A stretch of DNA of 64,000 nt, from positions 171,682 to 235,681 of IMG/VR virus record IMGVR_UViG_3300009108_000751, one strand, 5' to 3'. The position numbers were made by a program, and so were the translations under genes. This document shows, piece after piece, positions 9,882 through 60,220 of this stretch; within the stretch, counting starts at the first letter, position 1; each line of letters begins with the position of its first letter. The DNA comes from a virus. The notes beneath the pieces were generated by a model, which saw only the letters and a program-made list of their open reading frames with translations, was not told the origin of the DNA and ran no database searches.

Positions 9882-10907
9882 GTGAAGATCCCTGAAACAC
9901 TATCCTACGACGACGTGCTACTGGTTCCGCAATACAGCGAAATCAGATCCCGCGAGGAGTGCGACACTTCCACAGTGCTCGGACCTGGTGTGGAGCTAAA
10001 GATACCGATCATCTCATCCTGCATGGACACTGTGACAGAGGCAGAGATGGCAGCGGTACTGGCTAGGATGGGTGGATTAGGCATCATTCACCGCTACAAC
10101 ACACCCAAAGATCAGGCTGAGCTCGTGAGGAGAGCAGTTGAGCATGCAGAGGGTGGCCCCGTTGCTGCAGCTATTGGAGTGACAGGTGACTATTTCAAAC
10201 GCGCAAGCTTACTACTGGATGCTGGAGCCTCTGCTCTTTGTGTCGATGTGGCACACGGCCACCATATCCTTGTGAAAGAGGTGCTGGAGGAGCTACGTGC
10301 AACTCACGGAGAAGAGCTCTGCATCATCGCAGGAAACGTGGCAACCAAGCAAGGCATTAATGACTTAGCAGATTGGGGAGCAAATGCCGTACGATGCAAC
10401 ATTGGTGGAGGCTCTATATGCAGCACTCGAATCCAAACGGGACACGGTGTTCCGGGCTTTGAGACGATTTTACGATGCTACCAGACAGACCGGAACGTAG
10501 CGATCATTGCTGATGGCGGCATTCGAAACAGCGGCGATATCGTTAAGTCCATTGCTGCAGGATCTGACTGCGTGATGCTAGGCTCTCTTCTTTCTGGAAC
10601 TGATGAGTCACCCGGTGATTTCGTGTATGTTAACGGAGAAAAGCGCAAGGTCTATAGAGGCATGGCTAGCCAAGAAGCACAGTTCGACTGGCGAGGAAGA
10701 GCTAGCAGTCTAGAAGGTGTATCCGCCACTGTACCTTACAAAGGATCTGCCGATTTAATACTTAATAATCTGGTGCAAGGTTTGCGGAGCGGCATGTCTT
10801 ATTCCGGGGCAAGAACTCTCAAGGAGTTGCAGCACCGCGCACAATTTATCAAGCAGACTTCTGCAGGAGAGACCGAAAGTGGAACGCATATTCTCTCTAA
10901 TCGTTAA
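9882..10907 (+). CDS. IMP dehydrogenase / GMP reductase family enzyme, no CBS domains
   Basis: A 341-residue TIM-barrel enzyme. The start [16 protein letters not shown], the catalytic loop GGGSICSTR with its nucleophilic Cys (near residue 184), [13 protein letters not shown] and [15 protein letters not shown] are family hallmarks. It lacks the two CBS domains of most IMP dehydrogenases and has a short flap ([12 protein letters not shown]), nearer to GMP reductase. It therefore interconverts GMP and IMP or makes XMP; sequence alone does not settle the direction. The GTG start follows GGAGAG. It overlaps the endolysin gene. Confidence 0.88.
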
Positions 10908-24880: not shown

Positions 24881-27487
24881 ATGCAGCTTGATGAATTTAC
24901 CGACGTCGCCGGCGACATTATCATGTCGTCGATCCAGAAGGCAAAAAGCTTAAATAAAGCTCCAGTGCCTGAGTTCATACTTGAAGGTGTCATAGAGCAC
25001 GCAGATAGCCCTGTGTCTGCAATGATGATCAGCCACAAGATAGACAAGGAAAAGGTTCTTAGGGAGACTAAGGAATATTTGTCTACGCTCCCTGATGCGC
25101 CAGATGTTCATTCGTCTGAAGCGGGCGTTATTACTGTTCACCCGAGACTTGCGGCGCTTTTAGAGCGCGCCAAGAAGTCAGCTAACGACACCGGGGATGC
25201 TTATGTTGATACGCTTACTGTCTTCAAGCAGTTTTACACAGAGGGAACAGACAACAAGGGTACCCATCTTCTCACTTCTAACGGGATGTCGATGGAGAAA
25301 GCAGTATCTTCTTTCAAGAAGATCAGGGGCAACAAGAAGGTCAAGACTCGAAAAGAGAGGCTAGACTCTAAGGTCCTTGAAAAATACTGCACCAACATGG
25401 TTAAGGCTGCTTCATTGGGAGAATTCTCTCCCGTAATCGGTAGAGAGTTTGAGACTCGAAGAATCATCCAGATCTTATGTAGAAAATCCAAGAACAATCC
25501 AATCATTATCGGTGAGTCTGGAGTTGGCAAGACTGCAGTAGTTGAAGGATTGGCACAGCGGATACACAGAGGTGACGTCCCTGATTTCCTACAGGACTCT
25601 GAGCTTTATGAGCTAAGGATATCATCCCTTGTCGGAGGTGCTAAGCACAGAGGGGATTTAGAGGAGAGGGTAACTGAGCTCATGGACGTGATCTCCAGCC
25701 TTCCCAAGAACATCGTCCTGTTTATCGATGAGATCCACAGCATTGGTAGCACTGGGAGCGAGACAAGCCTCTCAGACCTTTTTAAACCTGCTCTTAGCAG
25801 AAACAAGATTAGGATTATTGGTGCCACTACCCTTGATGAGTACAGAAACTTTATTGAAAAAGATAAGGCTTTGGAGCGAAGACTCCAGTCTGTCTTTGTA
25901 GAGCCGCCAAGTGTTCGTGAGACTGTCGGAATCTTGCGAGGCCTCAGAGATACATACGAAGCCTTTCACGGTTTGCACATAAAGGATGCATCGCTTATTA
26001 CGGCATCTGAGCTATCTGATCGCTATATAACTTTTCGAAATCTTCCTGACAAAGCTATTGACCTTATTGACGAAGCTGCAGCAAGAGTAAGAGCAGAGAA
26101 CGAGATGACGCCTGCTGTAATGTCTGACCTTTCACAGAAGCTCTTAATGATCGACATTGAACTTGACTCTCTTCGAAAAGAATCAGATGATGATGCTAAG
26201 GAAGAGATTAATGAGCTTGAGAAAGAGCGTGCCAACGCCCAGGAAAAACTTAGTACACTCCAGCGAAAATTTGACACGGAAAAAGGTGTGATTGATCGAT
26301 ATCGAAAGGCTAAGGCGGCAAAACTAAAAGTAGAATCCAGGTTGGCAGATGCTCAAGCCGGCGGCGCTGATAGAGATGACTATTTCCGCATGAAAGTGGA
26401 GGATCTACCCAAAGTAGAAGAAGATCTTAGAGATGCCCAGCAAGCTTTCCACCAACTCCGCCAGTCAGGTGAACTAATGGTAAAAGAGGAGATAAGCCCA
26501 CTCGAGATAGCTCAAGTGATCTCAGATTGGATCGGTATTCCAGCTGAGAACTTATCTAAGTCTGATCGAGAGAAGCTCGCAACGCTAAGGGAGGATATCG
26601 AGGCACAAGTTTACGGTCAGCCCGATGCTGTGAAAGGCGTATCAGATGCGATCATTCGTTCTCGTGCAGGCCTCTCAGATGAGTCAAGACCGATCGGATC
26701 TTTTCTGTTCTTGGGCCCATCAGGTGTAGGAAAGACATGGCTTGCTAAATGTTTAGCGAAACTGATGTTCGATGACTACGAGCACATGATTAGAATTGAC
26801 ATGTCAGAATACGGTGAAAAGCATTCTGTGTCTCGCTTGGTAGGCGCTCCTCCAGGGTACGTCGGTTTTGAACAAGGCGGCCAGCTGACTGAAGCAGTTA
26901 GAAGACGACCGTATTCTATTGTACTACTTGATGAGATCGAGAAGGCACACCCAGAAGTGTTTGATGTTTTGCTTCAGGTCTTAGATGACGGAAGGCTTAC
27001 GGACGGACAAGGTCGAGTAGTAAACTTTAAGAATACCATTATCATCATGACATCCAATATCGGATCGCATCTTTTGCTCGAAGCATTATCCTCGACAGGC
27101 GAGGTGTCTAATGCCGTTCGTGAGCAAGTCATCACTTTGCTTCGAGCCAAGTATAGACCTGAGATCTTGAACAGAATCGATGAGATCGTTGTGTTCAATC
27201 CACTATCCAAAGATCTTCTAGGAAAGATCGCGATCACCTGCTTAGAAGAAGTTAGAGATAGGCTGTCTAAGAAGAAGATAAAGATTGAGTGGACAGACCA
27301 GCTAATACAATATTTGAACAGCCAGCAGTATGACCCATCCCAAGGTGCTCGAGGAATGAAGTCCTTTGTCAAGAAGCACGTTGAGACAGATATCGCCTCT
27401 GCCATCGTTCATAATCATGACGTGTCAAGCTTTAAGATTGATGTAGTGGATGATAAAGTGCAAATTCAACCCGTAGAGAATAATTAG
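24881..27487 (+). CDS. ClpB/ClpC-type double AAA+ unfoldase
   Basis: An 868-residue Hsp100 protein. The N-terminal domain is divergent. Module 1 has GESGVGKT (near residue 211) and VLFIDEIH. A charged coiled-coil middle domain lies at about 410-530. Module 2 has GPSGVGKT (near 612), GAPPGYVG, IVLLDEIEKAHP and an intact sensor region (EILNRIDEIV). I see no IGF/IGL loop in module 2, which argues for a ClpB-like disaggregase or assembly factor rather than a ClpP partner. It may remodel virion or replication complexes. Confidence 0.92.
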   Translation: MQLDEFTDVAGDIIMSSIQKAKSLNKAPVPEFILEGVIEHADSPVSAMMISHKIDKEKVLRETKEYLSTLPDAPDVHSSEAGVITVHPRLAALLERAKKSANDTGDAYVDTLTVFKQFYTEGTDNKGTHLLTSNGMSMEKAVSSFKKIRGNKKVKTRKERLDSKVLEKYCTNMVKAASLGEFSPVIGREFETRRIIQILCRKSKNNPIIIGESGVGKTAVVEGLAQRIHRGDVPDFLQDSELYELRISSLVGGAKHRGDLEERVTELMDVISSLPKNIVLFIDEIHSIGSTGSETSLSDLFKPALSRNKIRIIGATTLDEYRNFIEKDKALERRLQSVFVEPPSVRETVGILRGLRDTYEAFHGLHIKDASLITASELSDRYITFRNLPDKAIDLIDEAAARVRAENEMTPAVMSDLSQKLLMIDIELDSLRKESDDDAKEEINELEKERANAQEKLSTLQRKFDTEKGVIDRYRKAKAAKLKVESRLADAQAGGADRDDYFRMKVEDLPKVEEDLRDAQQAFHQLRQSGELMVKEEISPLEIAQVISDWIGIPAENLSKSDREKLATLREDIEAQVYGQPDAVKGVSDAIIRSRAGLSDESRPIGSFLFLGPSGVGKTWLAKCLAKLMFDDYEHMIRIDMSEYGEKHSVSRLVGAPPGYVGFEQGGQLTEAVRRRPYSIVLLDEIEKAHPEVFDVLLQVLDDGRLTDGQGRVVNFKNTIIIMTSNIGSHLLLEALSSTGEVSNAVREQVITLLRAKYRPEILNRIDEIVVFNPLSKDLLGKIAITCLEEVRDRLSKKKIKIEWTDQLIQYLNSQQYDPSQGARGMKSFVKKHVETDIASAIVHNHDVSSFKIDVVDDKVQIQPVENN

Positions 27488-30086: not shown

Positions 30087-32600
<2,514 letters not shown>

Positions 32601-38608: not shown

Positions 38609-40444
38609 ATGAGAAGATTTCGTCTCGGTAACACACCACCACAAACTCTTGCGATCTGGGCGCTAGCGCTCGGGCTGATCTTTATTTTGATAGCGCTCCC
38701 TGGCGCTCCGCGCAACCAAGCAAGACACGTTAGCTATACTGAAATGATCCAGTATGTCAAGGAGCTTCCTTCTGATAGGGAGGGCTCTGCAAAGCTTATC
38801 ATTAGCGGAGACAAGTGGGAGCTGCACCAGAAAGACGACCCGCTTGTCATAAAGACAACTGGGCCTGTCACCGAAAGCCTTCTAGAGCTAGCTCAAAAAC
38901 AGCATCCAGGATTGCGCTTGGTTATCAAGCCCGCAGAGCCACCATCTGCCTTTTGGTCGTTAATTATTGCCATCTTACCTTTCCTCTTCCTTGGCTTGCT
39001 GTTTTGGTTCTTCATGCGAGGCATGATGAAAGGGCAGGGAAGAGCTATGGACTTCAACAAGAGCAAACATACTCTGATGGCACCAGGGGAGAATGACAAG
39101 CGCTTCACTGACGTTGCGGGTTGTGATGAAGCCAAGCAAGATCTGGAAGAGATAGTTGAATATCTCAGAGAGCCTGCTAAGTTCTACAAGATCGGTGCTA
39201 AGCTTCCAAAAGGTATGCTTCTAGTCGGCCCACCAGGCACAGGCAAGACACTGCTGGCGAAGGCACTGGCTGGCGAAGCAGGTGTGCACTTCCTCACTAT
39301 CTCAGGTTCCGACTTTGTGGAGATGTTTGTAGGTGTTGGCGCCGCGCGCGTACGCGATCTATTTAAAGACGCTTCCTCTTTCGCACCCGCCATTGTTTTC
39401 ATCGACGAGATCGATGCCGTAGGCCGCCAACGAGGTGCAGGTATGGGCGGAGGCCACGACGAACGTGAGCAGACACTCAATCAGCTCCTGGTGGAGATGG
39501 ACGGTTTCGCTGAGAACAGTGGTATCATTGTCCTAGCCGCATCTAACCGACCCGATGTCCTGGATCCTGCCCTGCTCAGGCCCGGTCGCTTCGATCGTCG
39601 TGTAACTGTTGGACGCCCTGACATAAAAGGCCGCGCAGAGATCCTGAGAATACATCTGAGGGACATTCCTCTGTCCCCGTTGGTGGATATTCAAGTTGTG
39701 GCTCGTTCCACACCAGGAATGACAGGAGCAGATTTAGCTAATCTGTGCAACGAGGCAGCACTCGCTGCAGCCCGGGAAAGCCGTGAAAAGGTGGAGCCGC
39801 AAGATTTTGAGCTAGCTCGAGACAAGGTCACGATGGGATCTCCTCGCAAGTCGATGGTGATGTCCGACGAGCAGAAGCTGGCGACCGCCCGACATGAAGC
39901 CGGTCATACTGTCGTAGCTTTCCACACCAAAACGTCAGATCCCTTGCACAAGGTGACCATCATTCCACACGGAGGTGCCTTGGGATTGACGATGCAGTTA
40001 CCCGAAGAGGACAAGTATTGCGCCACTCAGGAAGAGTATGAGGACAGGATCAAGGTGCTGCTGGGCGGATATCTGGCCGAGAAGATGTACTACGGTGACA
40101 AAGGATCTACTACAGGTGTAAAGAATGACCTGCAAAGAGCCAAAGCGATCGCAGCTGGCATGGTTAAAGAGTTTGGCATGTCTGAGCTTGGACCAATCTA
40201 CAACTCCTCAGGAAATGACAATGTGTTCTTGGGCAGAGAGATGTCTATGTCTAGGAGAGGTGATATCAGTGAAGAGGTATCGTCTTCAATTGACCGTGAA
40301 ATCAGAAGCATTATTGAGGCATGCATGGATAAGGCCAAGGGCATCTTGCTGCACAACAAGATCGCAATGGACAAGCTCGTGGATGATCTAATGGAGCATG
40401 AGACATTAAACGCCGAGCAGATCAGCGAAGTATTATCCAGCTAA
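38609..40444 (+). CDS. ftsH: FtsH-type membrane AAA+ zinc protease
   Basis: A 611-residue membrane protease. Two membrane helices (residues about 14-31 and 112-137) flank a small periplasmic domain. The AAA module has [18 protein letters not shown] (near 207), IVFIDEIDA and the second region of homology ([10 protein letters not shown]). The protease has HEAGH near residue 428. All catalytic motifs are intact. It could degrade host membrane proteins or repressors, or (as in cyanophages) protect membrane complexes during infection. Confidence 0.95.
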
Positions 40445-43799: not shown

Positions 43800-43973
43800 A
43801 TGGATATTCCGCACTTAATGCCTGGCATGCTTGTCCGGACTAATATTCTAGAGCTTGAGACTGTGTGCGGAACTCCGGGCAAGATCATTGAATATGACGG
43901 AAAAGGCTTCTACAAGATTGATTTTTCGGGAATGATTAGGACTATACATTACAAGGGATTAATAGGATGGTGA
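43800..43973 (+). CDS. Small GDLV-family (SH3/KOW-like) protein
   Basis: A 57-residue protein: LMPGMLVRTNILELE, then GTPGKIIEYDGKGFYKIDFSG and IRTIHYKGL. It follows the family strand order with GMLV for GDLV. It overlaps the next member by seven bases. Function unknown. Confidence 0.58.
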   Translation: MDIPHLMPGMLVRTNILELETVCGTPGKIIEYDGKGFYKIDFSGMIRTIHYKGLIGW

Positions 43974-44269
43974 AGCCACCGGGCAGAAAAATCCAGTTGC
44001 GCCCACTGAATCTTAATGCAGGAGATCTCGTAAAGTATGTCGCCGTAAGAGGCTTCAACAGTATGTCAGGCAAGAAGGGCTTTGTCATCAAGAAGACGCA
44101 GTCCCGCTCGCCCCACCGGACAGATGTGTATCTAGTAAAGTTTCAGAACGAGGATCCAAGCGAAGTTGATGAGAGATGGTTGCAGAGAATATTTAGCAAC
44201 GAGGATGTGAGCAATGATAATCTGCATATGCAACGTGATCAGCGACAAGGACATTCGGAAAGCGATTGA
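43967..44269 (+). CDS. GDLV-family (SH3/KOW-like) protein
   Basis: A 100-residue member with a 20-residue basic N-terminal extension, then LNAGDLVKYV, GKKGFVIKKTQSRSPHRTDVYLVKF and a hydrophilic tail. The tail is read over the start of the Bfd-like gene, so its last 18 residues may be a by-product of overlap. Function unknown. Confidence 0.6.
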   Translation: MVKPPGRKIQLRPLNLNAGDLVKYVAVRGFNSMSGKKGFVIKKTQSRSPHRTDVYLVKFQNEDPSEVDERWLQRIFSNEDVSNDNLHMQRDQRQGHSESD

Positions 44270-44405
44270 TGATGGAGCCTCTGATTTCAATGAGTTCGCT
44301 AAGAAGTCAGGCATAGGAGATGACTGCGGAAGTTGTCACAAGTTTGCGCGCACATTTTTTGAAAAGTACTATGTTAAACAAGTTCAACCCCGGCGATCTC
44401 GTTAG
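44214..44405 (+). CDS. Bacterioferritin-associated ferredoxin (Bfd)-like [2Fe-2S] protein
   Basis: A 63-residue protein. MIICICNVISDKDIRKAI and GDDCGSCHKFARTFFE reproduce the Bfd pattern, with Cys4, Cys6, Cys38 and Cys41 as the cluster ligands and the typical helix between them. Bfd releases iron from bacterioferritin; related domains occur in NirB and NifU-like proteins. A phage copy could tap host iron stores. Both ends overlap GDLV genes, and its last residues (RRSR) are read over PGDLVR in another frame. Confidence 0.82.
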   Translation: MIICICNVISDKDIRKAIDDGASDFNEFAKKSGIGDDCGSCHKFARTFFEKYYVKQVQPRRSR

Positions 44406-44547
44406 AATAAAAAAGCACTGTAAAATAGGCGGCCAAGTCGGTATAATCTTTAAGAGTTATTACGGCATGGAACATGACCTCTTGATGTCATCAGGTCAGA
44501 AGATCCGGGCTCTTGAAATGAATATTGAGCCTGTTAATGAAAGCTAG
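44371..44547 (+). CDS. Small GDLV-family (SH3/KOW-like) protein
   Basis: A 58-residue protein, a clear family example: [47 protein letters not shown] 44371 was chosen because it places GDLV about nine residues from the start, as in relatives. It overlaps the Bfd-like gene by 35 bases. Confidence 0.65.
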   Translation: MLNKFNPGDLVRIKKHCKIGGQVGIIFKSYYGMEHDLLMSSGQKIRALEMNIEPVNES

Positions 44548-44821
44548 CGGATGGAAGTATGCGATGATCTTAGTAGACATCGATGAGTTCGATCAAGAAG
44601 TGTGCCAGCTTTCAGAGCTTTACAATATAGAGGGTTCCCCTGCATTTTGCAAGACTGATCTTCTCTCTTCATGGGAGTTGATGCAAGCTGCTAAAGACGT
44701 CCAGCGAGACGGCGTCAATCGATGGTTTTATGAGAACGGAACTTTCTCGTGGGAGAAAGAAGAAGGAATGAGCAAGTATTCTTGGGACTGGGCTCCCAAT
44801 GAAACGGGAAATAATGAGTAA
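44537..44821 (+). CDS. Hypothetical protein in the small-gene array
   Basis: A 94-residue acidic, Trp-rich protein (WKYAMILVDIDEFD, WFYENGTFSWEKEEG, YSWDWAPNE). It overlaps its neighbours by 11 and 8 bases. An internal ATG at 44564 is an alternative start. Family unknown. Confidence 0.5.
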   Translation: MKASGWKYAMILVDIDEFDQEVCQLSELYNIEGSPAFCKTDLLSSWELMQAAKDVQRDGVNRWFYENGTFSWEKEEGMSKYSWDWAPNETGNNE

Positions 44822-45065
44822 AGTCTACGTCAAAGACCTCGAGCCTGGAAAAGTTTACACCTTCAGTTACTGGCTTCACTCTTCCGCTGGGATCGTGCAA
44901 TACATCGGCCCATATCAGGAACCGTTCGCAAACGGCAAGACGTGGAAAGCTCACAGGTTTCTGTGGGTCAAGAAGCCAAGAGGATACGGCGAAGGTCAAT
45001 CAGTTGTATCACTTTACGGTGACAACATTAGAGGAACGATAGGGTGGTACAATGAAAAAGGGTGA
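44814..45065 (+). CDS. GDLV-like small protein
   Basis: An 83-residue protein. VKDLEPGKVYTFSYWL, AGIVQYIGPYQ and HRFLWVKKPRG resemble the barrel strands of the GDLV family, with GKVY replacing GDLV. It overlaps the next member by 14 bases. Function unknown. Confidence 0.55.
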   Translation: MSKVYVKDLEPGKVYTFSYWLHSSAGIVQYIGPYQEPFANGKTWKAHRFLWVKKPRGYGEGQSVVSLYGDNIRGTIGWYNEKG

Positions 45066-45411
45066 TCTTGTCAGGGTTAAAGCATCTGAGTTTGATGACT
45101 GGGGTAGACACCCACAGGGTTTTCGTTCGACTACGCGAGAAGAGCGAGACCAGTGGCGCCGGCAATTAAGCAGTGATATCGACGCTGGGCTCACTGAGTG
45201 GCACGACTCTGCGGGAGAACCTAGGCTTGCTCCGCAGTCTCACTATATCGATCTTAACATGGGTGACGCATACTTGGTGCTCAGAGCGAGAGCACATGCT
45301 CGTGTAGGCTGGGGCAACGGTGTTCCCAAGTGCGTTTATCTTGCCTGCCCGAAAACCGGTGAGAAGTTCTACATGCATCGGGAAGAGGTTGAGGTGGTGA
45401 GTGAGCGCTGA
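45052..45411 (+). CDS. GDLV-family protein with insertion
   Basis: A 119-residue member: MKKGDLVRVKASEFDDWG, then a charged insertion of about 45 residues, then AYLVLRARAHARVG and CVYLACPKTGEKFYMHREEVEVV. The barrel strands before and after the insertion match shorter relatives. Overlaps the GIY-YIG gene by 11 bases. Confidence 0.62.
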   Translation: MKKGDLVRVKASEFDDWGRHPQGFRSTTREERDQWRRQLSSDIDAGLTEWHDSAGEPRLAPQSHYIDLNMGDAYLVLRARAHARVGWGNGVPKCVYLACPKTGEKFYMHREEVEVVSER

Positions 45412-45655
45412 TTGGCTCATGTACGTGGTGGAGTGCGCAGATGGCACCTACTACACAGGTATAACTACTGATATCACCAGGCGCCTTCACGAGCACAATC
45501 ACACTAAACGGGCCGCTAAGTACACACGAGCTCGCCGACCCGTGGGCCTAATTTACTGTGAGAGATATGCTGATCGATCGGAGGCTTCAAAAGCCGAGGC
45601 TGCTTTTAAAAAGCTAACACGGAAACAAAAGGAAGCCTACATTGACTGGAATTAA
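45401..45655 (+). CDS. GIY-YIG domain nuclease (YhbQ-like)
   Basis: An 84-residue single-domain protein: MYVVECADGTYYTGITTDITRRLHEHN corresponds to the GIY...YIG strands and the conserved Arg, and a Glu follows later (YADRSEASKAEAAFKKL). It matches the UPF0213/YhbQ small GIY-YIG group. Members nick DNA or act in repair. No intron or homing context is seen. GTG start inside the previous gene. Confidence 0.82.
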   Translation: MSADWLMYVVECADGTYYTGITTDITRRLHEHNHTKRAAKYTRARRPVGLIYCERYADRSEASKAEAAFKKLTRKQKEAYIDWN

Positions 45656-45848
45656 GCTAGGTGACCTTGTCCGTGTTAAAGAAGGCTCGCGACTTGATGC
45701 CCGTGATCCTTTGTCGATGCCCCCTAGCGCTGGGATCGTTATAGATCTGATTGAAGATGATGTAGGATACACACATGCTTACGTGCTCTTTCAAGAGCAA
45801 AAGTGGTGGATCTTCTCAAACTTGCTGGAGGTGGTAGATGACGTATGA
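45642..45848 (+). CDS. Small GDLV-family (SH3/KOW-like) protein
   Basis: A 68-residue protein with a TTG start: MTGIKLGDLVRVKEGSRLD, SAGIVIDLIEDD, AYVLFQEQKWWIFSNLLEVV. A textbook family member with the aromatic 'w.i...LevV' end. It overlaps both neighbours. Confidence 0.65.
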   Translation: MTGIKLGDLVRVKEGSRLDARDPLSMPPSAGIVIDLIEDDVGYTHAYVLFQEQKWWIFSNLLEVVDDV

Positions 45849-46176
45849 CTTTCGGCACTACATGCTCAGCCTAAAGTCTGGAAGGACTAATGCTCACTTG
45901 CCCCTTCGAGATGGAATGATCCTGTCAATCCAGACCGGAAAGCGAAACTACTCAGAACCTCGTCTTGACGGATTATCGCCCTATGACTACGAGTCGTTTG
46001 AGGTTGGTATTTTCTCAAAAGACGGAGCGTGGCTCAACCCGTTCATGGAGGCTGACATGAGACACAAAGAGTGGAGCTCACACTGGTCAGAGTATGAGGA
46101 TGTCGCCGGATGGGTTCCAGCTGAAGTCGTGCAGCAGATCTACGACGATCTTCGGGAGCCAGATGAAACCCGGTGA
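45838..46176 (+). CDS. Hypothetical 112-residue protein
   Basis: A mixed protein with Tyr/Trp-rich segments (YDFRHYMLSLKSG, FEVGIFSKDGAWLNPF, GWVPAEVVQQIYDDL). The pattern could be a virus-specific metabolic regulator or structural accessory, but no family is recognised. Overlaps GDLV genes at both ends. Confidence 0.5.
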   Translation: MTYDFRHYMLSLKSGRTNAHLPLRDGMILSIQTGKRNYSEPRLDGLSPYDYESFEVGIFSKDGAWLNPFMEADMRHKEWSSHWSEYEDVAGWVPAEVVQQIYDDLREPDETR

Positions 46177-46366
46177 TCTCGTCAGAATAATCGCAAGAGA
46201 CGGAGAATGCACGGGACATGGTGTGTATTTATACGATGAGGAATACCCAATATTAGACAAGGTTTGCCCGCTAATATTTTATCGAGACAAAGAGAGCGCA
46301 AGGTGGTCTTTTGGCCATTTTGATGAACCCTGGTGGTACTTGGAGGTAGTAGATGAAGATCGGTGA
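46163..46366 (+). CDS. Small GDLV-family (SH3/KOW-like) protein
   Basis: A 67-residue protein beginning MKPGDLVRIIARDGE, then GHGVYLYDEEYPILD and ARWSFGHFDEPWWYLEVV. ATG 46163 was preferred because it has CGGGAG upstream and puts GDLV at residue 4. Overlaps both neighbours. Confidence 0.65.
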   Translation: MKPGDLVRIIARDGECTGHGVYLYDEEYPILDKVCPLIFYRDKESARWSFGHFDEPWWYLEVVDEDR

Positions 46367-46520
46367 TGAAGTAACAGTGATCGGCAAACCGGAGTTTGGA
46401 TCCGGAAAGATCGTTAGATTCTATGCTAATCAAAGCACAATCCTTGTTGATTTTGAGAACGAGGACAGATTGACCTACTGTGACTACGAAAGCGTCGAAT
46501 TCAGTGACCGCCAGCAGTAA
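46353..46520 (+). CDS. Small GDLV-like (Tudor/KOW-like) protein
   Basis: A 55-residue protein: MKIGDEVTVIGKPEFGSGKIVRFYA, ILVDFENEDRLTYCDYESVE. This is the most canonical five-strand barrel of the set, similar in layout to CarD- or Tudor-type domains. Begins inside the previous gene. Function unknown. Confidence 0.6.
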   Translation: MKIGDEVTVIGKPEFGSGKIVRFYANQSTILVDFENEDRLTYCDYESVEFSDRQQ

Positions 46521-46824
46521 ACTCTGGTCGTGGATGAATGCTCACATGTATATCACTGTGTTCGTCCTCACTGTCATTACGGATTTCTGGGCCAACTGGT
46601 ATAGTTACGCCATCGTGCATGACTGGATCGTGGTGCAGGCGTTTCTAGGATTGGCCCTACCTTTCTTAAATCTTCCCAGCATCTTGTTCTTCATCGATCA
46701 AAAAGACATGAAGATCAGGCTCCGGCTGTGTGCTGTCTCTGCTGTTGCCATGATGATCGGCTCAACCGCAATGCTCCTCATGATCCGTGCTGGTATCGGT
46801 GTGGGCAAGGACATGATCCCATGA
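46480..46824 (+). CDS. Multi-span small membrane protein
   Basis: A 114-residue protein with three hydrophobic helices (MYITVFVLTVITDFWANW, VVQAFLGLALPFLNLP, LCAVSAVAMMIGSTAMLLM). The start is uncertain: GTG 46480 gives full length, and GTG 46504 or an ATG near 46534 are possible. Overlaps its neighbours on both sides. Not recognised. Confidence 0.5.
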   Translation: MTTKASNSVTASSKLWSWMNAHMYITVFVLTVITDFWANWYSYAIVHDWIVVQAFLGLALPFLNLPSILFFIDQKDMKIRLRLCAVSAVAMMIGSTAMLLMIRAGIGVGKDMIP

Positions 46825-47126
46825 AACTAAGCGATTGGGAGAAAACATTCTGGGAAGATGAAAAAGGAAACAGGGTCACAATCCAAGATGTTCTGTCAGC
46901 ATTGCAAGATGAACCGATTGTTTCGCTGGAAGTTGAACCACTGACCCAGATATCTAACGTGATCATTGAACAGCATCGGAAGGAAACCGCAGACTTATCT
47001 TTTCCGATCATCGCAGTAGAGCAAGAAGGAGAGATCCAGTGCGTTCTTGACGGACATCATCGGTTGCAAAGAGCAGTAGACGAAAACAGGACACACATTC
47101 TTGCAAAGGTTCTGGTGATCTCGTGA
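46821..47126 (+). CDS. ParB/sulfiredoxin-fold-like protein
   Basis: A 101-residue protein. VSLEVEPL, FPIIAVEQEGEIQCVLDGHHRLQRAVDENRTHILAKVLVIS follows the ParB-N/Srx pattern, with DGHHRLQ as the phosphate-binding loop (consensus DGxHRxxA). Such domains bind or hydrolyse nucleotides. A partition role is unlikely for so short a protein. ATGA overlap upstream, GTGA overlap downstream. Confidence 0.62.
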   Translation: MKLSDWEKTFWEDEKGNRVTIQDVLSALQDEPIVSLEVEPLTQISNVIIEQHRKETADLSFPIIAVEQEGEIQCVLDGHHRLQRAVDENRTHILAKVLVIS

Positions 47127-47311
47127 AAGCTGGAGATCTCGTCAGTCGAAAGAGATCACCTCGTCGATATCTCGGTTTCGTCGTACGATTGTTTGACCTG
47201 GAAGTCCCGTCAATGCTCAATGAGCCGTTACCTGTCGCAGAGTTAATGACAAGTGAAGGTTTGCGAGTGTGGAAGATCAGAAAGCTAAAGGTGATGTGTG
47301 AAAGTCGGTGA
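47123..47311 (+). CDS. Small GDLV-family (SH3/KOW-like) protein
   Basis: A 62-residue basic protein: MKAGDLVSRKRSPRRYLGFVVRLFDLEV, VAELMTSEGLRVWKIRKLKVM. Arg/Lys-rich first loop. GTG start in a GTGA overlap; overlaps the next member by 14 bases. Confidence 0.63.
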   Translation: MKAGDLVSRKRSPRRYLGFVVRLFDLEVPSMLNEPLPVAELMTSEGLRVWKIRKLKVMCESR

Positions 47312-47486
47312 CCTTGTCTATGATACCTCCATTAACAAGCATGGAATGATCATTGCTGCAGGTATCGAATGGACGGATCACAACGATCAAACTTACGAGT
47401 GGGATTACGAAGTGCTCTACTCAGATGGCATGCGCGCCTATGCTGATACCATCGAACTTTTCCCTGCGATAGATGCTCCTAAATAG
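47298..47486 (+). CDS. Small GDLV-family (SH3/KOW-like) protein
   Basis: A 62-residue protein: MKVGDLVYDTSINKHGMIIAAGIEW, WDYEVLYSDGMRAYADTIELF. The 'vlysdG...y...lelf' end is typical. It is the last of the first dense GDLV array, before an A-rich spacer. Confidence 0.63.
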   Translation: MKVGDLVYDTSINKHGMIIAAGIEWTDHNDQTYEWDYEVLYSDGMRAYADTIELFPAIDAPK

Positions 47487-47496
47487 CTGCTTTTCC

Positions 47497-47530
47497 AAAA
47501 AAAATAAAAAAAAGTGAAAAAAAGAGGAAA
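47497..47530 (+). promoter_or_regulatory. A-rich tract before the secretion-like cassette
   Basis: About 34 bases that are nearly all A, broken by T and G, flanked by two copies of CTTTTCC. Long A-tracts bend DNA and can act as upstream promoter elements. The following 60 bases include GTAATAGATATAGGAC. It separates the small-gene array from the distinct cassette at 47590-49305. Confidence 0.4.
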
Positions 47531-47589
47531 CTTTTCCGTAAAACTACCGGTAATAGATATAGGACACCCAAAAATGAAAGGTCCTTTAG

Positions 47590-48411
47590 ATGGTAAACGG
47601 CATAAACTCACTTGGAACGCGCCTTAACAAGGCATTAGACAACCTTGGATACCCGGACGCGGTAGGTGACGTCGCAGGCGCGCAGCTCGACCTGGCAACA
47701 TTCAACGTCTCAGGCGCAGTTCAAAACTGGAAAGATCTCTTCTCAGGTCAAACCACGCAGCAGTTTTTAACCAAACCGTCGCAGGCATTAGCAAGATCAC
47801 GTAGGCTTCACGGTCACACATACGCGCAGAATACTGCACGCACCACGATGAACTCCGCTCTCCAGGCAATGGACGGTGAGATCATGAACCTTATGCGCGC
47901 AGCAGGCGAGACAGGTGCTGATCTACTCAGAGGCCAGATCCGCAAGCAGGGCGGTGACATGGAGTCGCTGGTCGGCCCCGGTGCCTCCTTTGAGGACATG
48001 CTTGCAGCGTTCCTCTTCAAGCAGATGCGCGACTCCGAGAAAGAGCTTAAGTCACTCATGCAAAAGTATGAGTCACTGAAGAAGGGCAAGAAGAAGGGTG
48101 GCATCTTCGGCGGCATCAAGTCCGCGTTCAAGTCACTCGCTTCGAAGGCTGTCTCCCTCGGCGGCGGCATGCTCGGCGGCCTGGTTGGTGGCCCGATCGG
48201 CTCACGACTTGGTGCTGCTTTTGGCGGAGGAATAGGTAACTCCCTCTTCGGCAAGAAGAAAGCTTCCGGTGACGTCGATCACAGCCGTTCAGTGATCAAC
48301 TTCAAGATCCAGCAAGCGATGAACAAGCGCAAGGAGATGTATGACATGATCTCTAACGTTCTGAAGACGATGCACGATATGAGCATGACTTCCATTAGAA
48401 ACATCAAGTAA
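47590..48411 (+). CDS. Glycine-zipper protein, possible secretion/translocator-type substrate
   Basis: A 273-residue protein. The helical N-terminal half (residues 60-180) contains AARTTMNSAL-like helices and a Lys cluster. Next comes a Gly-rich hydrophobic zone (VSLGGGMLGGLVGGPIGSRLG, near 200-225) able to insert in membranes. The C-terminal helix ends MISNVLKTMHDMSMTSIRNIK. The same ending motif occurs in the next protein. It heads a three-gene cassette whose third gene resembles a type III secretion rod. No signal peptide. Codons look richer in C/G endings than in neighbours. Confidence 0.6.
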   Translation: MVNGINSLGTRLNKALDNLGYPDAVGDVAGAQLDLATFNVSGAVQNWKDLFSGQTTQQFLTKPSQALARSRRLHGHTYAQNTARTTMNSALQAMDGEIMNLMRAAGETGADLLRGQIRKQGGDMESLVGPGASFEDMLAAFLFKQMRDSEKELKSLMQKYESLKKGKKKGGIFGGIKSAFKSLASKAVSLGGGMLGGLVGGPIGSRLGAAFGGGIGNSLFGKKKASGDVDHSRSVINFKIQQAMNKRKEMYDMISNVLKTMHDMSMTSIRNIK

Positions 48412-48421
48412 GGAAATAGAG

Positions 48422-48904
48422 ATGACTGCAATTAACAGGCTTAACAACGGCGGCTCAATCCGAATCAACTCCGCACCAGCAACCACACGACAAACTCCGC
48501 GTAACGACTTCGGAGCAATGATAGGTCGAGGCGTGGCAAACGGCGCAGGTGCAGTAGCAGGCGCAGTTGGAGTTGCAGCTCCCTTCATCCCTGGAGGAGC
48601 AGTCGTAAGTTCCACCGTCAGTCAGGCAGCCGGCGCGATCGGCAACTACGCTAACGATGGTGCGATGAACGTGCCCGGTCAAGCTCCTGGCTTGAACACT
48701 CCGATGGGACAAGGCGGAGGATCCTCCACACAATCCCTGATGGACCAGACGAAGCAGATGCAGGAGATGCAGATGAGCTTCAACTTGCAGTATCTCAACC
48801 TGCAGAACAAGATGCAAGGCGAGAACCGTCAATACAGCACGATCTCCAACGTGCTCAAGACCAAGCACGACACCACCAAGAACTCGATTAACAACATTCG
48901 ATAA
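48422..48904 (+). CDS. Gly/Ala-rich protein, paralogous C-terminus with preceding gene
   Basis: A 160-residue protein with a hydrophobic Gly/Ala zone (GAGAVAGAVGVAAPFIPGG, near residue 42) and a Met/Gln-rich helix (TKQMQEMQMSFNLQYLNLQ). The C-terminus STISNVLKTKHDTTKNSINNI nearly repeats that of the previous protein. To my recollection this tail occurs in proteins encoded beside type III secretion genes of delta-group bacteria; I could not check it. TAATG overlap with the rod-like gene. Confidence 0.6.
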   Translation: MTAINRLNNGGSIRINSAPATTRQTPRNDFGAMIGRGVANGAGAVAGAVGVAAPFIPGGAVVSSTVSQAAGAIGNYANDGAMNVPGQAPGLNTPMGQGGGSSTQSLMDQTKQMQEMQMSFNLQYLNLQNKMQGENRQYSTISNVLKTKHDTTKNSINNIR

Positions 48905-49305
48905 TGGATATTCCAGGCATAAACATCCAGCTACCCCAGGCTAATCAAGCAATTAAGCCCCAGAATGCCGCTAAGAGTTTCCAGGATGTCCTGCAGCAAA
49001 CTTCCTCCCCAGCAGGGATGGATAACTCCATTTCCACGCAGAAGACCACAGAGATCAAGCAGGATCTTCCGGTGGAAAAGACAAGAGACACACAGCTAAC
49101 CAAGGTTCTAAACAGCGTAATGTCCGGCCAGGACAAGATGAGCAAGATCATCAAGCTAGCAACCTCAGGCCGATCATTCACCCCTACAGAGTTACTTGCA
49201 GTACAAGCAGGCGTGTATAAGTTCAGCCAAGAGCTAGAACTGACCTCTAAGGTTGTTGAGAAAGCCACTGACGGCGTGAAGCAGACTCTGCAAACGCAGG
49301 TTTAA
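48904..49305 (+). CDS. Type III secretion inner-rod-like protein (SctI/YscI family)
   Basis: A 133-residue protein. The disordered, polar first half contains NAAKSFQDVLQQ. The second half is FTPTELLAVQAGVYKFSQELELTSKVVEKATDGVKQTLQTQ. This follows the SctI/YscI C-terminal consensus (SPxELLxxQ, Y-x-x-x-x-E-L, K-V-V-x-K-A-x-x-G-V-x-x-L-x-x-Q). SctI forms the inner rod of the injectisome. No injectisome ATPase, ring or export-gate genes are present, so the phage copy may mimic or poison a host apparatus, or build a phage structure. Confidence 0.62.
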   Translation: MDIPGINIQLPQANQAIKPQNAAKSFQDVLQQTSSPAGMDNSISTQKTTEIKQDLPVEKTRDTQLTKVLNSVMSGQDKMSKIIKLATSGRSFTPTELLAVQAGVYKFSQELELTSKVVEKATDGVKQTLQTQV

Positions 49306-49328
49306 ATCTTTGTTATTTAAGATATACT
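49300..49328 (+). promoter_or_regulatory. Class A promoter candidate, GTTTAA-17-TATACT
   Basis: GTTTAA (49300-49305, overlapping the rod-like gene's stop) and TATACT (49323-49328) are 17 bases apart. The overlapping ATACTTAT at 49324-49331 also resembles the second motif class. It would drive the tagged gene at 49357. Confidence 0.45.
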
Positions 49329-49356
49329 TATAGATGCTCACGCCAGGAGTGCATAA

Positions 49357-49827
49357 ATGAAGATAACAGCATCAAAATTACGCCAGATTATTCGCGAAGA
49401 AGTAAGCCGAATCCGCGAAGAAGACGATCATGAGCATGAACATGACATGATTTATGACCAAGCATATGAGATGCTACAGGGAGCTTTATCTCCTGATGAA
49501 ATGAAGAAATTTTTAGGCTTAACGTGGCTTTACACAGTCGATCTTAACGATGAGGATCTAAAGAAGGTTAAGAAGTGGCGCCTTATGCGGTCACAAGTAA
49601 AAAGGCTTTTGGTGTCTGCTGCGTTAGGAAAAAAAGTCAAGTCAATTAAAGCCCGCCATATACCTCGACTTTCGCCCTATTTGGATGAATATCTTAAGCT
49701 AACTAATAAGTCAATCGATGATATCCAAAACGACGGCAAGGATTCTTTTGTAGGCATATCTAAAGAGATCATGAGCAATGCTCTGAGTGCTAGCATTCTA
49801 AAAAGGCGTTGGCCAAAGCCCTCCTAA
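49357..49827 (+). CDS. Tagged putative virion protein
   Basis: A 156-residue protein with the tag MKITASKLRQIIREEVSRI at the start, then a His/Glu/Asp-rich stretch (DDHEHEHDMIYD). A helical, basic domain rich in Lys/Arg follows (KKVKKWRLMRSQVKRLL) and ends in RRWPKPS. No enzyme motif. AGGAG lies nine bases upstream. Confidence 0.62.
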   Translation: MKITASKLRQIIREEVSRIREEDDHEHEHDMIYDQAYEMLQGALSPDEMKKFLGLTWLYTVDLNDEDLKKVKKWRLMRSQVKRLLVSAALGKKVKSIKARHIPRLSPYLDEYLKLTNKSIDDIQNDGKDSFVGISKEIMSNALSASILKRRWPKPS

Positions 49828-49875
49828 AACAAACCCTACAAACCCAAGTATAATAGAACGTTCGGAGTTCTACTT

Positions 49876-50160
49876 GTGGATGTCAAAGACCGCGTCTTTA
49901 AAGTAGGTGATCTCGTGCGCTTCGCCGAGAGAGCAGACAAGTACGGCGGCCCTATACACTGGACAGGTAATGATGCTAGCGGTGAGCTCGTGAGCATTCC
50001 TGAGCTTACACCTGCAGTTGTTACAAAAGTTCACCCCGATGAGGAGGGTAATCCCATCATCGAAGTCCTGGTCATGAACAAGATTGTTCCAGGTTGGTAT
50101 GATACATCGTTTGAGGAGTGGTGGGATGCACATGAAAAAGACCGTAAGCGAGTGGAATAA
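49876..50160 (+). CDS. GDLV-family (SH3/KOW-like) protein
   Basis: A 94-residue member from GTG 49876 (GGAG upstream; TATAAT at 49849-49854). VFKVGDLVRFAERADKYGG, PAVVTKVHPDEEGNPIIEVLVMN and WYDTSFEEWWDAH form the barrel and an aromatic tail. It starts a second GDLV run and overlaps the next member by 35 bases. Confidence 0.65.
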   Translation: MDVKDRVFKVGDLVRFAERADKYGGPIHWTGNDASGELVSIPELTPAVVTKVHPDEEGNPIIEVLVMNKIVPGWYDTSFEEWWDAHEKDRKRVE

Positions 50161-50359
50161 AAGTTTCAGTCCCGGCGATCTCGTTCTTATTACAGCCCAA
50201 TTCGCAGACGGAAAATATCGCCAAGGTCTAATACTGGAAGTGGTAAAACATAGCACCGCTCCGGGATACCAGATCTTGATTGACGGTAAGAAGAGGTACT
50301 TCCCGCCGCACTTATTAAAAGCCATATCATGTAGAAAGAGAAGTGATGAGGATAGGTGA
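50126..50359 (+). CDS. Small GDLV-family (SH3/KOW-like) protein
   Basis: A 77-residue protein; ATG 50126 lies seven bases after GAGGAG. SFSPGDLVLITAQFADG, YRQGLILEVVKHS, YQILIDGKKRYFPPHLLKAI. Basic C-terminus (CRKRSDEDR). It overlaps both neighbouring members. Confidence 0.65.
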   Translation: MHMKKTVSEWNKSFSPGDLVLITAQFADGKYRQGLILEVVKHSTAPGYQILIDGKKRYFPPHLLKAISCRKRSDEDR

Positions 50360-50549
50360 CATGGTTCGGTTTCGAGATATCATCAATCATCGAACTCAAG
50401 AACTAACTGATTGGAAATACGGAGTGATCGTGGCTGAGTACCATACCTGGGAAAAGGTCGCGACTGTCCTGCACGAAGGAGAGCTTCGCCGGATCCGCGC
50501 TGAGTACATCCAGATACATCAGCGAGGCCACAGCAATAATGATCGTTGA
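50346..50549 (+). CDS. Small GDLV-family (SH3/KOW-like) protein
   Basis: A 67-residue protein: MRIGDMVRFRDIINHR, WKYGVIVAEYHTWEKVATVLHEG, RRIRAEYIQIH. GTG 50343 is a possible start one codon earlier. It overlaps the membrane-protein gene that follows by 11 bases. Confidence 0.63.
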   Translation: MRIGDMVRFRDIINHRTQELTDWKYGVIVAEYHTWEKVATVLHEGELRRIRAEYIQIHQRGHSNNDR

Positions 50550-58376: not shown

Positions 58377-59402
58377 GTGGCAGTGTCCAAAGATTTTTAC
58401 AGTATTTTAGGCGTTGACAAGGATGCCTCACCAACACAGATTAAAAAAGCTTATCGAAAGCTAGCTAAGAAGTTTCATCCCGACACGTCAGATGAAGATA
58501 ACGCTGAGGACCGCTTCAAGGAGATTGCTGAGGCCTACTCTGTCTTGAGCGACCCAGACAAGAGATCACAGTATGACAATCCAAAACCTAGGGGCTTTCC
58601 GCAAGGAGGCGGCTTCGAGGATTTCTTTAGTCAGTTTGATGTTGGGATGGGTGACTTCTTCCCTGGTTCTGGCAGGCGAAGGAAGTCTAAGCCTCGACCT
58701 GGAAACCTTCGCTACAGGTTAAATCTAGATTTTATGGCTGCAGCCAAAGGCAGAGTCATCGATGTGAAAGTGGATCGAACTGTTCACTGCGATAGCTGCG
58801 ACTCAACCGGCAAGACTAATGAGACTGTCGAAGAGGTCTGCAACCAGTGCGGAGGAGCAGGTCAAATCACATTCTCGCAGGGTTTCTTTCAAATGGCCCA
58901 GACGTGCGCCCCCTGCGGAGGACAAGGAAAGAAAGTCAAGAACCCATGCCAGACCTGCAAAGGTCGTGGCTGCAAGGATAGTCAAGGCACTGTTAGCGTT
59001 AATATTCCCGCAGGAGTGGAAAGCGGAAACGTCATTCGTGTGCCCGGATGGGGGCATCAAAACGTGAAAGGCTCACCGGCAGGAGATCTGTTCTTAGAAG
59101 TAAGCGTCTCAGGGCACGGCCAGTTTAGACGGAACGGGAACGACATTCACACTGATGTTAAGATAACCATACCCGAAGCAGTGCTAGGTTGCAGGCGTGA
59201 GGTGAAAACCATTCACGACACCACTGAGCGTATTCTCATACCCGACTGCACGCAACCAGGCGACACTGTCAGGATCAAAGGGCAGGGAGTTGCAGGAGGA
59301 GATCACGTGGTCAACATTTACATCGCGTTTCCAAAGCACCTGCCCAGGGATCTAGAGGATGCATACGAAGGAGTTTATGCAGTAACCCATCCTGAAGGAT
59401 AG
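58377..59402 (+). CDS. dnaJ: DnaJ (Hsp40) co-chaperone
   Basis: A 341-residue type I DnaJ. The J domain (residues 6-70) has FHPDTS, whose HPD triggers Hsp70 ATPase. A Gly/Phe region ([11 protein letters not shown]) follows. Four zinc repeats ([36 protein letters not shown]) are intact. Two substrate-binding domains complete it. No DnaK is present in the window, so it probably redirects host DnaK to phage complexes. GTG 58377, or GTG 58383 as alternative. Confidence 0.94.
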
Positions 59403-59410
59403 GTATTAAC

Positions 59411-60220
59411 ATGCTAATATTTCTCGGAATCATCACGTTCGTCGTCTTTGTTCATGAGTTAGGTCACTACCTGATGGCAAAGTCTCTGGGTATACCCGTT
59501 AACGATTTCTCAATTGGGTTCGGTCCCAAGCTCTTCGGCTTTCACGCCCTCGGCACGCACTGGAAATTCTGCATTATTCCTCTCGGCGGCTATGTAAGGC
59601 TGCAGGGCGACCAGGATTACGAGAATGAAGCAGAAGATCCAAACTCTTTCTGGGGGTGTCATCCCTGGAAGAGGATCGCGATTGCGATTGCAGGCCCTGT
59701 GGTGAACCTTCTGCTACCACTTCTCCTCTTCTTCGGTTATTACTGGGGGCAAACTGTGGAGGTGCAGCATCATTATCCCCAGGGTGTGATGACAAAAGTT
59801 CACAAGGTTGATGCTAAGACTGCAGCCAAAGCTTCCTACTTGATGACTGAAAATATGTACACCGCTTTGGGGCGCGCAGTAGGCCACATCAAGAAACAGG
59901 GCGTTAAGAAGGAAGACCTGGGCGGTCCAGTCGCCATCTACCAGGAGACACAGAAGGCCGCTGAACGCTCAGAAAAGACGCAGGATTGGGGTTTCTTAAT
60001 CCAGTGGGTCGCGTTCTTCTCGATTAATCTGGGGATCATGAACCTACTACCTGTGCCACTACTTGACGGCGGGCATGTGATGCTCTCATCATACGAGGTG
60101 GTAACCAGAAAAAGGATATCGCTTAGTGTTAGGAGCAAGCTGCACTTTGCAGGCTTGATGTTTGTCTTCGCGCTGATGGCTTTTGCAGTCTACTCAGACG
60201 TCGTCCGTCTATGGGGGTGA
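59411..60220 (+). CDS. Site-2 (M50) membrane metalloprotease, RseP-like without PDZ
   Basis: A 269-residue intramembrane protease. VHELGHYLMAK near residue 15 holds the HExGH zinc site, GGYVRL is conserved in the RseP group, and NLLPVPLLDGGH near residue 217 supplies the third ligand Asp. About four membrane helices are seen. The PDZ domains of RseP (usual length about 450) are absent. It could cut host anti-sigma factors or clear signal peptides of the many phage lipoproteins. It ends overlapping the convergent MopE-vWA gene. Confidence 0.9.
   Translation: MLIFLGIITFVVFVHELGHYLMAKSLGIPVNDFSIGFGPKLFGFHALGTHWKFCIIPLGGYVRLQGDQDYENEAEDPNSFWGCHPWKRIAIAIAGPVVNLLLPLLLFFGYYWGQTVEVQHHYPQGVMTKVHKVDAKTAAKASYLMTENMYTALGRAVGHIKKQGVKKEDLGGPVAIYQETQKAAERSEKTQDWGFLIQWVAFFSINLGIMNLLPVPLLDGGHVMLSSYEVVTRKRISLSVRSKLHFAGLMFVFALMAFAVYSDVVRLWG

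Follow-up and report, generated by a model that had tools for sequence, protein, structure and literature searches.

What would a large bacteriophage do with the axial parts of its host's type III secretion system (T3SS)? The question is raised by three consecutive genes, hereafter g1, g2 and g3, in a window of 64,000 nt, that is the whole stretch of DNA analysed here and the final 64 kb of a virus record of 235,681 bases. As argued below, the best explanation for this cassette, with a probability of roughly 0.6, is that its axial subunits were acquired from the T3SS of a Myxococcota host, are regulated and exported by that host, and replace or poison its rod and filament.

The phage and its three-gene cassette

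The source contig is that of a large, contractile-tailed, T4-like myophage, among whose products a portal, a tail sheath and baseplate proteins could be recognized and whose portal and capsid have distant T4-like relatives. The virion genes identified occupy ~68-132 kb of the record and the cassette is located at 219.3-221.0 kb amid small genes, more than 70 kb away from them. On the plus strand of the window, the cassette comprises g1 (47590..48411; 273 aa), with an N-terminal region common with cellular T3SS proteins, a glycine-rich hydrophobic zone and an SctF-like C-terminus, g2 (48422..48904; 160 aa), with an SctF-like C-terminal helix and, in cells, a rod gene adjacent or near, and g3 (48904..49305; 133 aa), of which the C-terminal 75 residues are conserved. 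An A-rich spacer lies 5' of the block on the same strand (about 47487..47526), a similar A-rich stretch being present upstream in the contigs L002 and L009. An earlier note on this DNA had described the three open reading frames (ORFs), the glycine-rich hydrophobic zones, the matching C-termini of g1 and g2 and the spacer, all of which were seen again. Its impression of a preference for C/G-ending codons is borne out in part, the GC content at the third position being 0.66, 0.63 and 0.58 in g1, g2 and g3, respectively, vs. 0.45 +/- 0.09 in the phage ORFs (97th, 93rd and 88th percentile).

The three-gene block is kept in other viral contigs (L002/L003, L004/L005 and L006). Between the window and L002, dN/dS amounts to 0.055, 0.067 and 0.097 for g1, g2 and g3, respectively, which are rough values as dS is high, and purifying selection acts on the three genes. 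Chance resemblance to T3SS genes was ruled out by the cellular homologues, the synteny and the independent capture presented below. As the earlier note had also stated, no injectisome machinery accompanies the cassette: neither T3SS machinery nor T3SS chaperone is detectable by homology in the phage, and the other products of cellular T3SS loci that were examined have no T3SS-type homologue among the phage ORFs.

Regarding the surroundings, the cassette is flanked by many small ORFs (43967-50549) with a common start like MKxGDLV, apparently forming a paralogous family. Several phage proteins display an MKITxxxLRQIIREEL-like N-terminal motif (window starts 7742, 8429, 21643, 49357, 54654, 55107 and 55649), including the product of the gene directly 3' of the cassette, and this motif is perhaps a packaging or targeting tag. 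In one of the related contigs (L004:8544-9506), a 320-aa ORF, HNH-endonuclease-like by eye, separates g1 from g2 and is absent from this place in the window. On the same contig, an IMP dehydrogenase-like gene is apparently split by an intein-like stretch (L004:12876-13718), the window copy (9882-10907) being 341 aa long. The phage further carries chaperone and protease genes (24881-27487, 30257-31852, 38609-40444, 58377-59402 and 59411-60220), namely ClpA/B-like (40% to a bacterial homologue) and GroEL-like ones and, by eye, FtsH-, DnaJ- and RseP-like ones.

g3 and the inner rod protein SctI

On sequence grounds, g3 is considered a homologue of the T3SS inner rod SctI, a component reported for the T3SS of Myxococcales (PMC3459982). 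The relation to the SctI family put forward in the earlier note is supported. In the two family searches, both with scores under the cut-offs, the rod family PF17001 was the sole family reported from Pfam (E 0.0038; 18.1 bits, below the cut-off of 32.4 bits), with an alignment extending to the last profile position, and SctI the sole one from NCBIfam (E 0.0099, below cut-off). The closest relatives (77% over 75 aa) are situated in Myxococcota T3SS loci, and scanning genomes with a profile of the phage g3 gave homologues in three Myxococcota/Deltaproteobacteria MAGs (68-77% identity). The g3 family is present in 154 of 195 Myxococcota genomes. When these same genomes were searched with PF17001, 102 gave matches, the best reaching 29.9 bits and none exceeding the 32.4-bit cut-off, and the places of the matches listed are largely those of the g3 family; 23 out of 31 family members match NCBIfam SctI at E<=0.1. 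In one cellular locus (L097), the rod gene comes after g2 inside a cluster that also contains SctQ, R, S, T, U and V, and in another (L096), whose cluster includes SctQ and R, it stands before SctJ. Such a setting is found for the cellular homologues of g3 but not for the phage copy. The product of g3 has in common with the Myxococcales-type SctI (PF17001; YscI/HrpB family) the C-terminal domain, whose cellular homologues belong to T3SS clusters, but differs by being encoded by a phage, by a shorter N-terminal part and by a score under the curated cut-off.

g1, g2 and the needle-type C-terminus

The C-termini of g1 and g2 are nearly identical (ISNVLKTMHDMSMTSIRNIK and ISNVLKTKHDTTKNSINNIR) and, as far as sequence comparison goes, are part of a superfamily that includes the SctF needle domains. 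The link to SctF runs via cellular relatives, members of which match needle models: two genomes contain cellular g1-like paralogues that score above the PF09392 cut-off, and one such paralogue (L104) matches TIGR02105 over positions 7-72 out of 72 (E 5.8e-6, under the model cut-off). In profile-profile comparison with the cellular needle-type set, E was 1.3e-12 for g2 (97.8%) and 5e-9 for g1 (95.9%). Searched directly, the phage g2 gave no SctF match with Pfam and NCBIfam, and the phage g1 matched the NCBIfam needle model weakly (TIGR02105, E 0.069). Other weak Pfam/NCBIfam matches of g1 and g2 (C19orf12, PdsO and Arg_decarb_HB) seem to reflect sequence composition and were set aside. The earlier note had called for a search of the common C-terminus and would have abandoned its reading had no profile match to SctI been obtained and had this C-terminus been confined to phage tail proteins; T3SS loci of Myxococcota contain it and phage tail proteins do not, so that the refutation foreseen there did not come about. 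Profile comparison revealed no relation between g2 and the rod family, PDB sequence searches returned nothing relevant, and the AF2 models are of low confidence (mean pLDDT of 44 for g1 and 54 for g2).

With 273 and 160 aa, respectively, instead of about 70-80 residues for the needle subunit SctF (PF09392 / TIGR02105), g1 and g2 are classed as needle-domain proteins rather than as SctF, from which their long glycine-rich N-terminal parts also distinguish them. In cells, g2 lies 5' of the rod gene, either immediately adjacent or separated by a few genes. As for g1, which is multi-copy in cells, its nearest homologue (G006) comes after SctU and two genes of 143 and 144 aa, and another one (G007) is also near SctU. 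Compared with their cellular homologues, the phage subunits exhibit 72-87% identity over the last 60 residues vs. 36-59% over the remainder, and the phage g1 is devoid of an internal block of ~80-100 residues present in all five cellular homologues aligned.

The Myxococcota T3SS has been described as lacking the SctF needle, the secretin and the translocon (PMC3459982, PMC10433427, PMC12075869). Considering this "needleless" description together with an SctF-like C-terminus encoded near sctI, g2 is a candidate for the absent filament, that is the putative filament subunit of the Myxococcota T3SS, perhaps overlooked as a needle-like part because of its long N-terminal extension. Besides, Myxococcota genomes harbour a large and variable family of proteins ending in the needle-type motif (L103-L116), with several copies per genome.

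Origin and repeated capture

A Myxococcota source, already suspected in the earlier note, is supported by the location of the closest homologues in Myxococcota T3SS loci. The rods of the window-type phages group beside that of MAG ANT-56 (L030), the joint clade having a bootstrap of 99-100%; the window-type g2 sequences alone are not resolved as one clade. Most likely, the window phage infects predatory Myxococcota. A second phage of 174 kb (L123), whose gene core is distantly related to that of the window phage (portal 47%/408 aa, capsid region 59%/258 aa), carries g2 and g3, no separate g1 having been found on its contig. A gene of genome G076 shares 77% identity with the g2 of L123, whose rod belongs to another rod clade, so that the pair appears to derive from a different Myxococcota lineage than the window cassette. 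A single phage clade was rejected for both g2 (p-AU 9.9e-6) and the rod (p-AU 1.7e-4), which implies at least two captures from host to phage, or one capture followed by a later replacement. Among 50,697 records of named phages, queries with g2 and g3 yielded no credible homologue, the first tblastn against phages having returned only weak streptococcal phage matches (E 0.4) that were discounted, and plasmids searched with a cellular rod gave no homologue.

A putative promoter box in common with cellular T3SS genes

Between the A-rich spacer and g1 lies a putative FliA/sigma28-like promoter box, GAAAC-N16-CGGTAAT (47527..47554, plus strand), which departs at two positions from the cellular consensus GCAAC-N16-CGATAAT. 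Aligning the upstream regions of the five phage cassettes revealed AAC-N15-CCG(A/G)TAA at -59 to -62 (counted from AAC), and all five boxes have 0-2 mismatches to the cellular consensus. Taken alone, the window box is not distinctive, with 25 sites having <=2 mismatches in the 235-kb phage genome, and a spacer-weighted matrix did not place it among the top-ranked sites of that genome; L123 has an exact box, of which there is no second exact copy in its 174 kb. Since the pattern was derived from phage sequences, the independent test lies in bacterial genomes, where the box (GCAAC-N16-CGATAAT, <=1 mismatch) occurs 5' of 27 out of at most 80 cellular g1, g2 or rod genes vs. 18 out of 401 control ORFs, an enrichment whose p of ~1e-12 is nominal only, the g1, g2 and rod genes being related. 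At the scale of whole genomes, the exact consensus is present in 112/195 vs. 6/195 for the reversed pattern.

The sigma28 (FliA) promoter has a -10 box CCGATAA and a -35 box TAAA, with which the box described here agrees for the -10 and the spacing but not for the -35, GCAAC differing from TAAA. A gene for a FliA/WhiG-family sigma factor sits between g2 and the rod gene in three cellular loci (L030, L031 and L096), and we infer that a T3SS-linked sigma factor of the FliA family reads the box. The cassette is apparently switched on by a control signal of the host. The phage has hardly any copies of the T4-type late promoter TATAAATA. In Myxococcota, the ORFs behind GCAAC-N16-CGATAAT (L141-L170) include homologues of g1, g2 and the rod as well as several further proteins whose N-termini are of low complexity, among them L155, which is peptidoglycan-binding/hydrolase-like by eye, and could possibly represent a list of T3SS substrates.

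What the cassette would do in the host

The identities of the parts are well supported, and their effect on the host is what we infer as follows. During infection, the host's T3SS-linked FliA-family sigma factor would direct RNA polymerase to transcribe the cassette and the host export apparatus would secrete the phage subunits, whose conserved C-termini would let them enter the rod and the filament and displace the host's own, while the shortened g1 and the diverged N-terminal parts would give an altered or blocked filament. Of all these steps, the direction in which the system is affected is the least secure: the lean towards blockage comes solely from the missing g1 block and the short N-termini, and no separate g1 was found in L123. 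Jamming or re-dressing the host T3SS, which could serve to exclude other phages or to halt predatory secretion, nonetheless appears somewhat more likely than boosting it.

Such boosting, in which rod and filament subunits supplied by the phage would keep or extend T3SS-driven predation in the course of infection and thereby gain nutrients, could draw on the same genes, promoter box and purifying selection, and the T3SS* of M. xanthus is indeed required for prey lysis (PMC12075869, PMC10433427); yet the phage supplies no chaperone or machinery genes and its g1 is shortened, which makes this explanation unlikely, if still worth considering. Far less probable is a role in the phage particle, whether as a conduit, as the earlier note had also envisaged for the rod, or as an injected component. 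The cassette products are small helical proteins that presumably self-assemble, but the distance of more than 70 kb to the virion genes identified and the nature of every close homologue, that is a cellular T3SS gene, led to the rejection of a tail or conduit role, and the lack of credible homologues of g2 and g3 in named phages as well as a promoter box of cellular T3SS type also speak against it. The least probable explanation, T3SS genes acquired by chance and currently functionless, would fit the elevated third-position GC of the cassette within this phage, a feature to be anticipated in captured genes, but is already disfavoured by the dN/dS of 0.055-0.097, the gene order maintained in diverged phages, the retained promoter box and the capture of the same gene pair twice.

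Returning to captured subunits that replace or poison the host's own, a wider proposal is more tentative and falls a little short of an even chance: large phages of predatory Myxococcota would have repeatedly captured T3SS axial subunits, would keep them under control of the T3SS-linked sigma factor of the host and would rebuild or plug the injectisome with them, while SctF-domain proteins of the g2 type would form a filament in the "needleless" T3SS* of myxobacteria.

Known systems and significance

Two kinds of phage genes offer a parallel. T3SS effectors encoded by prophages, for example SopE (PMC7380047), likewise feed into the host T3SS, but those are cargo, whereas the cassette encodes axial components of the secretion machine. 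Phage proteins inhibiting type IV pili, thereby preventing superinfection (PMC8764522), provide an analogy for the proposed effect since a phage gene disables or alters a surface filament of the host, but they target a different machine, whereas the cassette products are homologues of the filament subunits themselves. In the literature, phage-borne T3SS effectors are known and no report of a phage-borne rod and filament was found.

Altogether, the cassette suggests that a phage exchanges or jams the injection channel of its host during infection, which, if true, would be a new route for subverting a host secretion machine. It also bears on an open question in the field, as the T3SS* of myxobacterial predation is described without needle and translocon (PMC12075869, PMC10433427), yet a conserved gene with an SctF-like C-terminus adjoins or lies near sctI. 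Finally, the promoter box common to the cassette and the cellular genes provides a handle for listing the substrates of the Myxococcota T3SS.
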